64,000 nucleotides of DNA, taken from assembly GCF_005886805.2 (NCBI RefSeq), contig NZ_CP045429.1, forward strand, positions 3,070,501 to 3,134,500, given 5' to 3'. This document shows, piece after piece, positions 30,471 through 34,145 of this stretch. The position numbers and the translations under genes are program-made. The stretch is from Pseudoalteromonas rubra. Lineage in GTDB: Bacteria; Pseudomonadota; Gammaproteobacteria; Enterobacterales; Alteromonadaceae. The notes beneath the pieces were generated by a model. The model did no database searches and was not told the DNA's origin. It worked only from the letters and a program-made list of their open reading frames with translations. Position 1 is the first letter of the stretch; each line of letters begins with the position of its first letter.

Positions 30471-30983
30471 ATGTTAAACAAACTTGCTGAATTTTCTCGC
30501 ACCCGGCTAGCCTGGGGCTTATTGTTTTTTTCTGCTTTTGTGCTCGAAGCTATCGCCCTGTATTTCCAGTATGGGATGGGTCTTGAACCCTGCATCATGT
30601 GTATTTATCAGCGTACAGCCACACTGGGTATTGTCGCTGCTGGTTTGATTGGACTGGCTGCTCCGACGAGCCTGCCTGTGAGACTCATTGCGATGATCTG
30701 CTGGGGCGTGTCGGCCATTTGGGGCTGGCTACTGGCAAAAGAGCACATTAGTATGCAAACCACCACAGATCCTTTTGCTTTTACCTGTGACTTTGTGCCT
30801 AATTTCCCAAGCTTTATGCCGCTGCATGAATGGCTCCCGGCCTTCTTCGCTGCAACCGGCGATTGTGGTAATATAGACTGGTTTTTCGCGGGTCTGTCGA
30901 TGCCAGGCTGGATGGAAGTCATATTTGCACTTTACAGCCTCTGTTTCATCGCCTTTGCCGCCGTATTTATTGCTAAAAGATGA
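30471..30983 (+). CDS. dsbB: Disulfide bond formation protein DsbB
   Basis: Four-helix inner-membrane quinone reductase that reoxidises periplasmic DsbA (170 aa). The redox pairs are Cys41/Cys44 (LEPCIMCIYQR) in periplasmic loop 1, and Cys106/Cys132 in loop 2 (FTCDFVP and TGDCGNIDW). Transmembrane segments lie at about 14-32, 48-64, 70-88 and 145-165. AAAAGGAAC precedes the ATG. It is followed 7 bp later by a small membrane protein gene, probably cotranscribed. nhaB, a frequent dsbB neighbour, is absent. Confidence 0.96.
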   Translation: MLNKLAEFSRTRLAWGLLFFSAFVLEAIALYFQYGMGLEPCIMCIYQRTATLGIVAAGLIGLAAPTSLPVRLIAMICWGVSAIWGWLLAKEHISMQTTTDPFAFTCDFVPNFPSFMPLHEWLPAFFAATGDCGNIDWFFAGLSMPGWMEVIFALYSLCFIAFAAVFIAKR

Positions 30984-30990
30984 GAAGTAA

Positions 30991-31293
30991 ATGGTTTTCA
31001 GACTCAGTAAACTTGCCGAATTAAATGACTTTGCACTGCGCGATAAACAACGTATCAAAGCACTGGCTTTGGCCCAGCTGTCGGCATCGCACAAGATTTT
31101 GCTTAATATCGCCAAGCTTTTGCTACTGACGCCACTGTTTATGGCACTGGCGTTTATAGAGGGCTGGCTACTGTTACCTGTGCTACTTGTTTGTGGATTG
31201 GCATACCCTCTGCTCACCGTACCACTGGAAATACAGTTCGCCCGGCCTCATTTGCACCACGCTATTGCAGAGTTTCGTAAAACACACCCCTAA
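30991..31293 (+). CDS. Small membrane protein downstream of dsbB, unknown
   Basis: 100-aa protein with a soluble N-terminus (RLSKLAELNDFALRDKQRIK) and two close hydrophobic segments (ILLNIAKLLLLTPLFMALAF and WLLLPVLLVCGLAYPLLTVP). A short tail follows, with His residues (FARPHLHHAIAEF). It lies 7 bp after dsbB, so it is probably in the same unit. I do not recognise a family with certainty. A hairpin with an A-rich 5' side starts at the stop codon. Confidence 0.75.
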   Translation: MVFRLSKLAELNDFALRDKQRIKALALAQLSASHKILLNIAKLLLLTPLFMALAFIEGWLLLPVLLVCGLAYPLLTVPLEIQFARPHLHHAIAEFRKTHP

Positions 31294-31317
31294 AAAAAGT
31301 GGTGCACCGCACCACTT
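31292..31317 (-). terminator. Terminator of the 52-aa peptide gene
   Basis: On the minus strand, AAGTGGTGC, loop GGT, GCACCACTT (31317-31297) runs into seven T residues. It lies 23 bp after the stop of the small peptide gene at 31340. On the plus strand the same hairpin follows the dsbB-linked gene without a T-run. Confidence 0.82.
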
Positions 31318-31339
31318 AACTACTCGTCAGCCTCTGGCA

Positions 31340-31498
31340 CTATGCGCGGCAATCAGGTCCTTTGCTTAACTCTTCACACCAGACCGTCCAGGGCTTAGTC
31401 GTATATCCGCCCCCAATCTGAGGTGTGTTAGCCTGGTCTAGTACTTTATGTTGTTCATTTAGACGCTTTAGCTTGCAGGTTTTTAATTGTAGTTTCAT
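31340..31498 (-). CDS. 52-aa Cys-containing peptide with TPQIGGG leader-like motif (candidate RiPP precursor)
   Basis: Short gene of 52 codons plus stop. GAAGGAAG lies 8-9 bp before the ATG at 31498, and a strong terminator follows. The protein divides into two parts. The N-terminal leader-like half is Lys/Leu-rich (MKLQLKTCKLKRLNEQHKVL, then DQANTPQIGGG). The C-terminal core of about 21 residues follows the Gly triplet, with two cysteines and two tryptophans (YTTKPWTVWCEELSKGPDCR, then A). A double-Gly-type boundary and a short Cys/Ser/Thr core are the layout of bacteriocin and lanthipeptide-like precursors. From memory, similar 'KL-x-L ... TPQ-V/I-GGG' small proteins occur in Pseudoalteromonas, some auto-labelled class I lanthipeptide. 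No modification enzyme or peptidase-transporter lies in the window. The gene is divergent from a TonB-dependent receptor. Coding status is well supported; function is not. Confidence 0.72.
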   Translation of the reverse strand: MKLQLKTCKLKRLNEQHKVLDQANTPQIGGGYTTKPWTVWCEELSKGPDCRA

Positions 31499-31530
31499 AG
31501 TTTAGCTTCCTTCTGGGTGATTGTTTCATG

Positions 31531-31560
31531 ATCATAAAATCACAAGTACCCTAGTAGCAA
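31531..31560 (-). promoter_or_regulatory. Possible sigma-70 promoter for the 52-aa peptide gene
   Basis: On the minus strand, TTGCTA (31560-31555), an 18-bp spacer and TATGAT (31536-31531). This predicts a short leader of about 25-30 bases before the ATG at 31498. The -35 is weak. Confidence 0.35.
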
Positions 31561-31793
31561 CAAGTGCAAAAAACATACAAATGTTACAAATTAATGCATT
31601 CGACACACTCCATCATATTATTGAAATTTACTGAGCACTCTGCCGACATTCTTCTGCCTAGTTGAGTTTATACACCAGCCCTGCGAGCCACAATTTAGCT
31701 GCTATACTCAATGGCAACGATCCGATAGATAGGGTCATTAGAGCTGGATTATTCTCCAGGGAGTAGGAATAATTGTCATTAATAAGGTACTGA

Positions 31794-34145
31794 ATGAACA
31801 ATAGACTCCCCAGCATCGCGCACTTGTGCGCAAGTTGTGTGCTGTTTAGCTCAATATCCTGGGCTGATACACAGCCCGATAGTGACAACGATGTATTTGC
31901 TTTGTCTATTGATGAGCTGATGGAAGTAACCGTTGAGGCACGAAAAGTCAAAGAGGATGCACTGGCTATACCCGTCTCTATTTCCGTCATGTCTGAACAA
32001 TTTCTGCGCGAACGCAACGTCAATACTTTGCTAGAAGCCGCTTATTTTATTCCCAATATAGATATCACCACGGTCGGCGAAAACTCTGGCTGTACACACT
32101 GTGCCAACATTACCATCCGTGGCATTGGTCAGGTTGACCCGCTTCCCACCGTCGATCCCAGTGTGGGGCTTTATCTAGATGGGGTTTACTATGCACGCTC
32201 CCCAGGGGGAATTTTTGACCTGTATGATGTACGTCAGATAGAAGTACTACGAGGCCCTCAGGGCGCTATTTTCGGTAAAAACACCATAGGCGGCGCTGTC
32301 ACTATCTACACACACGACCCCATCGCAGATACTTTTGCAGATGGCGAAATCACGCTGGGCGCTTTTGAGCGCCGAGATGTACGTATGCGCGCTAACCTTG
32401 AGCTCAACGACTCACTCAGTAGCCGTTTGACATTCACTCACCTCAATCGGGATGGTTTTGTCAGGCGTGACAATGGCGAATTTGAAGGTGGGCAAGATGA
32501 GTGGGCGGTCAGCGCCAAGTTTCGCTACCAGGTGACGCCTGAATTAACGACTCAATTATCTGTGGATCAGCGCAGGATCAATTCAGGCTCCGCCCCATCT
32601 ATCCTTGCAGCTAAAAACGACCAAGCCGACTTGCTAGTGCTATACAACGACTTAGTCACACAAAGTGGCGTTGCTGATCCTTACCCGCCGCTACAGATCT
32701 TCGGTTCAGCACACCAAAGCGCTTCGCGCGGCACAAACTTTAACACACTAGATCAATCCGGTGCTTTGCTCTCAGTCGAATGGCAAACCCCAAAACAGTG
32801 GCAAATAAAGTCCTTGACGGCCTATCGGGAGTTTTACGCAACCTATGGTCGCGATTTTGACAATAACCCGGCTGTCATTGGCGATACGCAGGATTTTCAG
32901 CGTCAGTTTCAGTTCAGCCAGGAACTGAATATCAGCGGCAGTGCCCTGAACGATCAACTCAGTTGGTTAGTCGGCTTATTCCATTTTGATGAACACATCA
33001 ATCATCTGACCGACCTGGTCTTTATCGGTGGGTTATATCAGGCACTGGAAAATGTACAAGGACCATTAGACGGCTCGCCACTGAATAACCCCACCAGCAT
33101 AGGCGGGCCAGGTAACCCGCTCAACATTGGCCTGGACATAGACAGTGGTTTTGACAATGAAGTGGATATTAAAAGTACCGCAATATACACCCATGCCAAA
33201 TACGCACTGACGCGTCACTGGGCTTTTCATTTTGGTGGGCGGCTTACGTTCGAAGATAAGATGCAACAGGTTCAGAGTGACGCAGACAATGCGGGGGTCA
33301 TTTTGATAGACAGAACGCAGCAAACACAGGGGCAAAAAAACGGCGGCCCTATTGAACGAAGTTGGCGAGTGTTTTCTCCGCAAGGCGGATTAGAGTATCA
33401 CTTTAACGACAAACACTTCGTCTATTTGAGTGCATCACGGGGGTTTAAATCAGGTGGATTTAACGGCATTCCGAATTCCCCCACCTCAGCTCAACCATTT
33501 GACCCCGAATACCTGAAGGCTTATGAGCTGGGCTATAAGACCAAATTGCTAGCAGATACTCTTCAACTCAGCGTCGCAGCTTTTGATATGCAGCACAAAG
33601 CCATGCAGCTACGGGGTGGCCAATCGACAGACGCCGGCCTTGAGATCTTTATCGACAATGTCGGAGAGACCAGTATTCGGGGCATTGAAGCCAGCTTTAA
33701 GGCTATACCTGCACACGACTGGCACCTTTCAGGTAACCTATCATACACAGATGCACAATTTGATTCAGTCGGTACAGCCACACAGGTAACAACAGACAGC
33801 ACATTAATGCGCTCACCGCGTTGGACTGCAGCATTGGGATTACGTTACCACTGGCCGATTGCACAACAGCAACCAGTTAAGGTGTCACTCAACTGGGGCT
33901 TTCGAAGCAAAACGTATAACGATGTATATAATACTGAGCTTGGGGCGCAAGGCAGCTTTGCTCTTTTAAACGCGCGGATCAGTCACGCTATCACAGCACA
34001 AATGGAAGTTGCGCTGTTTGTTCGCAACCTCACGGATAAACGCGTGTTAATTGGCGGCAATGACTTTACCGAGGTCTTCGGTGTGTCCGAACATTACCTG
34101 GCCCTTCCCAGAGAGTGGGGTCTCTCCCTGTCTTACCAGTTTTAA
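31794..34145 (+). CDS. TonB-dependent outer-membrane receptor, substrate unknown
   Basis: 783-aa receptor. The signal peptide ends near residue 24 (SSISWA, then DTQ). The plug domain (about 45-165) includes VTVEARKVKEDALAIPVSIS, VGLYLDGVYYAR, and the IEVLRGPQGAIFGKNTIGGA block. The 22-strand barrel follows and ends in the C-terminal aromatic signature SLSYQF. The plug carries an unusual C-T-H-C motif (SGCTHCANITIRGIG). The family resembles TBDRs of marine and sphingomonad bacteria (FKSGGFNG and AYELGYKTKL blocks), not classic siderophore receptors. The ligand cannot be assigned. AAGG lies 8 bp before the ATG. A solute-binding-like gene follows 2 bp after its stop, and the small peptide gene diverges upstream. 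Confidence 0.9.
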   Translation: MNNRLPSIAHLCASCVLFSSISWADTQPDSDNDVFALSIDELMEVTVEARKVKEDALAIPVSISVMSEQFLRERNVNTLLEAAYFIPNIDITTVGENSGCTHCANITIRGIGQVDPLPTVDPSVGLYLDGVYYARSPGGIFDLYDVRQIEVLRGPQGAIFGKNTIGGAVTIYTHDPIADTFADGEITLGAFERRDVRMRANLELNDSLSSRLTFTHLNRDGFVRRDNGEFEGGQDEWAVSAKFRYQVTPELTTQLSVDQRRINSGSAPSILAAKNDQADLLVLYNDLVTQSGVADPYPPLQIFGSAHQSASRGTNFNTLDQSGALLSVEWQTPKQWQIKSLTAYREFYATYGRDFDNNPAVIGDTQDFQRQFQFSQELNISGSALNDQLSWLVGLFHFDEHINHLTDLVFIGGLYQALENVQGPLDGSPLNNPTSIGGPGNPLNIGLDIDSGFDNEVDIKSTAIYTHAKYALTRHWAFHFGGRLTFEDKMQQVQSDADNAGVILIDRTQQTQGQKNGGPIERSWRVFSPQGGLEYHFNDKHFVYLSASRGFKSGGFNGIPNSPTSAQPFDPEYLKAYELGYKTKLLADTLQLSVAAFDMQHKAMQLRGGQSTDAGLEIFIDNVGETSIRGIEASFKAIPAHDWHLSGNLSYTDAQFDSVGTATQVTTDSTLMRSPRWTAALGLRYHWPIAQQQPVKVSLNWGFRSKTYNDVYNTELGAQGSFALLNARISHAITAQMEVALFVRNLTDKRVLIGGNDFTEVFGVSEHYLALPREWGLSLSYQF

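Follow-up and report, generated by a model that had tools for sequence, protein, structure and literature searches.

Class I lanthipeptides are known from the genus Pseudoalteromonas, where LanB and LanC of the P. citrea PciA/B/C system act on PciA in E. coli (PMC9993889) and where P. flavipulchra S16 yields pseudorosins A-C, class I lanthipeptides with PsfB (PMC12819058). Both systems share the genus and the enzyme class of the one described here. As far as their descriptions in the available text allow a comparison, they carry the precursor beside the enzymes, whereas in P. rubra none lies beside the enzymes and about 31 are dispersed. The other relevant systems are the prochlorosins and synechococsins, in which one enzyme serves many scattered precursors (79 putative ones for SyncM; PMC10783134) and which are the model for this arrangement (also PMC11251773). 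From these partial descriptions, they resemble the present system in having one enzyme, scattered precursors, a conserved leader, and diverse Cys-containing cores, and the 31 members and single LanB found here would correspond to the same way of working. However, the prochlorosins (ProcM, SyncM) depend on a class II LanM and Nif11-type leaders, while P. rubra has LanB plus LanC and a leader of ~30 residues without a Pfam match; in addition, 11 of the 30 cores examined in P. rubra have recognisable relatives in other clades. The likeness therefore concerns how the system works and not family membership, since there is neither a LanM nor a Nif11 leader.

A 2020 mining of lanthipeptides (Walker et al.) reached, according to its available text, at most seven genes from LanC (PMC7268733). 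A sequence-only reading of the DNA studied here had put the gene forward as a candidate for an undescribed system; the related class I lanthipeptides of Pseudoalteromonas (PciA, pseudorosins) are already published, but no description of dispersed class I precursors was found among titles and abstract openings. The dispersed class I architecture is thus new as far as the literature search reached, and the chemistry is known. We conclude that the focal gene is very probably an orphan class I lanthipeptide precursor (LanA) modified in trans.

The focal gene and its leader family

The window, i.e., the whole 64,000-nucleotide stretch of P. rubra DNA that we analysed, contains on its minus strand the 52-residue ORF of the earlier reading, with a sequence matching that description (Table 1). 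Seven of the 15 other genomes searched carry an intact copy of the gene, and the same seven form a clade with the source genome on a GlmU tree; the homologous short genes expected in relatives are thus present. The ribosome-binding site and the T-run terminator that had been claimed were both found, with one terminator in 31250-31760 versus a mean of 0.3 (sd 0.6) in shuffles. In contrast, the claimed plausible promoter did not stand up: the two consensus matches on the focal strand are at chance level compared with shuffled DNA (mean 1.1, sd 1.0). The ~110 nt upstream of the gene look conserved by eye in the seven orthologs. The split of the protein at TPQIGGG and the composition of the core, which holds two Cys and two Trp, were given correctly, but the leader Cys is residue 8 instead of residue 10. 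A disulfide arrangement involving this Cys was rejected, because all seven orthologs have Ser, Asn, or Thr in its place. The gene is flanked by dsbB (30471-30983, plus strand) and a TonB-dependent receptor gene (31794-34145, plus strand), for neither of which a link to the peptide was found.

Table 1. Features of the focal precursor gene, with positions in the window.
Feature	Position	Strand	Remarks
Precursor gene (lanA-like orphan), 52 aa + stop	31340..31498	-	ATG start; seven orthologs; 30 further leader-family members in genome
Leader, residues 1-31 (MKLQLKTCKLKRLNEQHKVLDQANTPQIGGG)	31406..31498	-	
Core, residues 32-52 (YTTKPWTVWCEELSKGPDCRA)	31343..31405	-	Predicted mature peptide after a cut behind GGG
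Predicted ring A, Thr38-Cys41 (core Thr7-Cys10)	31376..31387	-	Inferred; pair kept in g14 cores
Predicted ring B, Ser45-Cys50 (core Ser14-Cys19)	31349..31366	-	Inferred; Thr14-Cys19 in g14 cores
Ribosome-binding site AGAAGGAAG	31506..31514	-	7 nt 5' of ATG
Intrinsic terminator	31297..31317	-	9-bp stem, then T-run
Upstream region	31499..31608	-	One weak sigma-70-like match (31560-31531); conservation in seven orthologs by eye

The focal protein looked like a near-orphan because a protein database search alone gave two relatives, both hypothetical proteins of P. rubra. It reached no family in NCBIfam or Pfam (no Pfam match at E <= 10). When the protein was used as a single query against its own genome, 19 of the 20 matches at E <= 10 carried the full leader; profile A1 gave 33 matches at E <= 10, and a second profile, A3, gave 31 members at E <= 1e-4, in line with the earlier expectation of many short genes with a similar leader. 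We read thirty of the members individually. They are encoded by single genes dispersed on both replicons and share the leader pattern MKLxLxKKxLKxL...TP(Q/x)(I/V)AGG, in which the alignment positions K11, L13, T24, and G29 never vary. The leader is followed by cores of 19-40 residues, each different and mostly unrelated to the others, with Cys in 29 of 30. The curated class I leader models lant_leader_L1a (NF038153) and L1b (NF038158) show a weak resemblance: they match three and two of the 30 members at E <= 1, with a bit score of 15.6, far under the cut-off of 27, and the focal protein matches neither. Two further candidates were rejected as members, namely L020, which lacks the start of the leader, and a match at C2:33527 (E 0.366) that spans positions 23-51 only.

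C39 peptidases recognise hydrophobic residues at positions -4, -7, and -12, according to the available text of PMC10885120. In the 30 members, position -4 is Val or Ile in 29, position -7 is Thr in all 30, and position -12 is Leu in 21, a pattern that fits C39 recognition. As expected for a C39 double-glycine substrate, there is a GG-type site with hydrophobic residues at -4 and -12, and the genome encodes a C39 transporter.

The surroundings of the family members were also compared. AAGGA-type sites similar to the focal one precede most paralogs, and no obvious promoter motif was shared by eye among 22 upstream regions. For the 21 members in the fetched stretches, the nearest called ORF of >= 90 aa is 27-1071 bases away. 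No common theme was seen in 30 neighbouring proteins scanned (three of the focal gene and 27 of paralogs, some paralogs only), two of which are sigma-54 response regulators; a functional coupling to the neighbours was rejected on this ground.

The LanB/LanC/LanT hub and the distribution of the leader

The source genome (5.94 Mb, two contigs, estimated 100% complete) yields a single match each to PF04738 and PF03412 and two to PF05147. LanB, LanC, a C39-ABC transporter (LanT), and an HlyD-type protein are encoded side by side at C1:4543397-4551370, which is 1.44 Mb away from the focal gene, so that the suggested search of the remaining genome for LanB, LanC, and C39 recovered all three in one operon. 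LanB is a full-length protein of 1049 aa with fused glutamylation and elimination domains (PF04738, 449.9 bits; TIGR03891, 208.2 bits versus a cut-off of 48.45), and it matches NisB (4wd9, E 2.9e-26) among the solved chains. The free-standing LanC (406 aa; PF05147, 130.3 bits) matches NisC (E 4e-6) and carries GWCYG at 266 and CHGF at 317, whose WCYG and CHG motifs we take to be the zinc ligands. LanT is the only C39 match of the genome, has intact C39 ECG...H...D motifs, and matches the C39 transporter 4ry2. The other PF05147 match falls on a class III LanKC of 907 aa (L056:4033-6756, minus strand; C2 near 175-178 kb; 622 bits versus a cut-off of 575), which adjoins a 610-aa ORF resembling a prolyl oligopeptidase, as named by eye from its sequence. 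No class II LanM was found in the genome, both PF05147 proteins scoring far under the LanM cut-off of 304 (65.9 and 85.4 bits).

The leader-family profile has no match in the 19-kb hub stretch (L055), and the hub itself showed no alternative substrate for LanB. A precursor in the same cluster, which is usual for class I systems but not defining, is therefore absent here and present in relatives. We scanned 49 of 80 related LanB loci, leaving aside 31 (L123, L124, and L126-L154) with best-segment identities of 32-35%. A leader-family ORF (E <= 1e-4) occurs somewhere in the stretch at 34 of the 49 loci. At 20 of them it is part of the operon or adjoins it, no more than about 1.4 kb from lanC or lanB; it lies <= 0.7 kb upstream of lanC in 18 loci and within 1.4 kb of lanB in L108 and L115. 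The loci with a nearby leader-family ORF include those of P. flavipulchra, P. piscicida, P. phenolica, P. denitrificans, Colwellia, and Rheinheimera; the P. flavipulchra LanB (L098, with the ORF upstream of lanC) is 62-63% identical to the hub LanB. Because precursors adjoin lanBC in relatives, the leader is tied to LanB/LanC independently of co-occurrence. The five other rubra-type loci (L075-L077, L094, and L100) have no leader-family ORF, and the comparison suggests that the compact operon may be the older state.

Several other features of the related loci were recorded. The hub adjoins glmU in most of the Pseudoalteromonas loci compared (L055:13127-15889; L075-L104), and the LanT identity in L075-L104 (85-98%) exceeds that of LanC (55-90%) and mostly that of LanB (62-92%). 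L118 (Vibrio sp. Of7-15) and L112 (Alkalimonas amylolytica) have complete LanB-LanC-LanT-HlyD sets with no leader-family ORF within 23 kb; their precursors may have another leader or sit elsewhere. In relatives, some members of the leader family lack Cys in the core. At L078, L080, L085, L093, L097, and L106, from P. luteoviolacea, P. aurantia, and one relative, tandem leader-family arrays with Cys-free or Cys-poor, Thr/Ser-rich cores (NTDTVTQ- and SSDTSVT-like) stand a few kb away from the hub, and a cousin in the source genome (C1:1034658) has the core TDTHSITQVGFINPKNITG; these cores could be dehydrated without rings.

Across 99 Pseudoalteromonas genomes, compared row by row, the leader profile (E <= 1e-4) and PF04738 match the very same 47 genomes, 43 of which have a single PF04738 match. 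The leader counts per positive genome range from 1 to at least 66 (median 21), the top counts being lower bounds because 66 is also the number of candidates scored. Mapped onto a GlmU tree covering these 99 genomes, the label changes only five times, four of them forced, and a sign test on four independent pairs gives p = 0.125; the perfect match within the genus thus rests on few events. At the family level (295 genomes, up to 22 candidates scored per genome), the leader was found in 25 genomes from 11 of the 52 genera, eight of them Pseudoalteromonas again, and all 25 have a hub-type LanB (E < 1e-100). Hence, the leader occurs in 25 of the 26 genomes with a hub-type LanB versus 0 of the 269 others, which comprise 7 with a diverged LanB only and 262 without LanB. 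The exception is G353, which has a hub-type LanB and no leader match among its best candidates (at most 22 per genome).

Ser/Thr and Cys placement and conservation of the cores

For each Cys of the cores, we counted Ser/Thr since the previous Cys with at least one residue between, leaving out the one Cys-free core of the 30. In the 29 cores of the source genome, 87 of the 95 Cys have such an upstream Ser/Thr, compared with 46.5 +- 3.8 in full shuffles and 64.7 +- 3.3 in shuffles with Cys fixed, and 0 of 20000 shuffles reach 87. The result was replicated with members from other genomes, of which 60 were collected, 32 were dropped as redundant or like the source-genome cores, and 28 nonredundant ones were kept: 88 of 101 Cys versus 68.7 +- 3.2, with 0 of 10000 shuffles reaching 88. 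For the pooled set of 196 Cys, Ser/Thr occupies position -3 in 64 cases, against a shuffle mean of 38.8, and position -2 in 10 cases, against 37.0, with 0 of 5000 shuffles as extreme. Lanthionine rings smaller than Ser/Thr-x-x-Cys are rare, and the excess at -3 and deficit at -2 would fit rings of this size or larger. For 18 of the 196 pooled Cys no Ser/Thr is available after the preceding Cys, and for 28 the closest one is the immediate neighbour. An excess of Ser/Thr is also seen downstream of Cys (57 versus 47.8 in the source genome; 64 versus 50.6 in the other genomes), which we read as the residue of the next ring. The precursors accordingly combine a leader with a Ser/Thr/Cys core suited to thioether rings, as in class I systems.

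The core had been expected to vary. This holds between paralogs, but in the orthologs no part is more constrained than the core: over the eight rubra-clade genomes, pN is 0.024 and pS 0.500 in the core (pN/pS 0.05; amino-acid changes at 3 of 21 codons) and 0.073 and 0.478 in the leader. When GGG plus the focal core was searched in 64 LanB-positive genomes, strong matches were found in seven rubra-clade genomes. Three of the four genomes of g14, another genus, match the focal core with E 2.5e-4 to 1.2e-3 and have the leader attached, reading YT(T/S)RPWTWYCEEPTN(I/P)LMC. The focal and g14 cores agree at Thr 7, Cys 10, Ser/Thr 14, and Cys 19 but differ at 15-18 (KGPD versus NILM or NPLM), as two thioether rings would lead one to expect. 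A leader-family protein with YTTRPGTIGCETTTKEC... that has the first ring pair in common with the focal core occurs in five P. piscicida-type genomes (L331-L334 and L337; E 0.024-0.057). Altogether, 26 genomes are positive at E <= 1, and the remainder beyond these groups look like chance.

Conservation is not confined to the focal core, since a comparison with 125 other cores gave relatives at z > 6 for 11 of the 30 cores of the source genome. In ten core pairs, counted after leaving out the 19 cores with z <= 6 and one pair at 96% identity, conservation reaches 32 of 34 positions for Cys, 36 of 47 for Ser/Thr, and 109 of 194 for the other residues, with Ser/Thr scored more leniently in that either residue was accepted.

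Candidate mechanism and its alternatives

The earlier proposal of a RiPP precursor with leader and core and trans-acting enzymes is supported by the shared-leader genes and the remote LanB, LanC, and C39 transporter, and the modification type is most likely that of a class I lanthipeptide. We propose that the genome's only LanB would bind the shared leader and dehydrate Ser/Thr of the core; LanC would then join Cys to the dehydrated residues, the C39 domain of LanT would cut behind GG(G), and LanT-HlyD would export the peptide, presumably via TolC. The predicted product has 21 residues and thioether rings Thr7-Cys10 and Ser14-Cys19, with Thr2 and Thr3 possibly left dehydrated. The same LanB/LanC/LanT hub probably serves about 31 single-gene precursors on both replicons.

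An unmodified or disulfide-bonded double-glycine peptide, similar to class II microcins, would have a leader read only by the C39 transporter, with LanB and LanC left for other substrates. The C39-type positions of the leader, the location of the only C39 protein in the hub, the Cys-free members in relatives, and dsbB beside the focal gene would all suit such a peptide. Nevertheless, we regard it as improbable, given that the Ser/Thr placement relative to Cys is needless in a disulfide peptide, that the hub shows no other LanB substrate, and that the leader follows LanB exactly in 99 genomes, although this comparison scored LanB only and does not separate LanB from LanT. Modification by the class III LanKC on replicon C2 instead of LanB/LanC is harder still to accept: that enzyme is present above its curated cut-off, but leader-family genes stand in or beside lanBC operons at 20 of 49 loci and the leader tracks LanB across genus and family. 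Scarcely any weight falls on the focal gene being a decaying leftover copy whose product has ceased to be made or processed. The missing cis enzymes and chance-level promoter matches could be taken that way, yet the gene is intact in all eight genomes, its core has a pN/pS of 0.05, and a related core occurs in another genus.

Returning to the class I precursor modified in trans, our guess, which is tentative, is that the mature peptide acts on a conserved target outside the cell, as a signal or a narrow-range antagonist. For the family as a whole, we lean towards a trans-acting class I system in which one LanBC-T hub, without a precursor of its own in the rubra-type genomes seen, would serve up to at least 66 separate precursors with many cores conserved across species and genera. 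These precursors would then form a maintained portfolio of separately encoded ring peptides rather than a random library of freely varying cores. Cluster-based mining seeks precursors near the enzymes, and most of these precursors would therefore be missed. If confirmed, a LanB/LanC pair able to handle unrelated cores by the dozen would be the equivalent of ProcM in class I and useful in peptide engineering, and the conserved focal core offers a concrete peptide for asking what purpose such repertoires serve.
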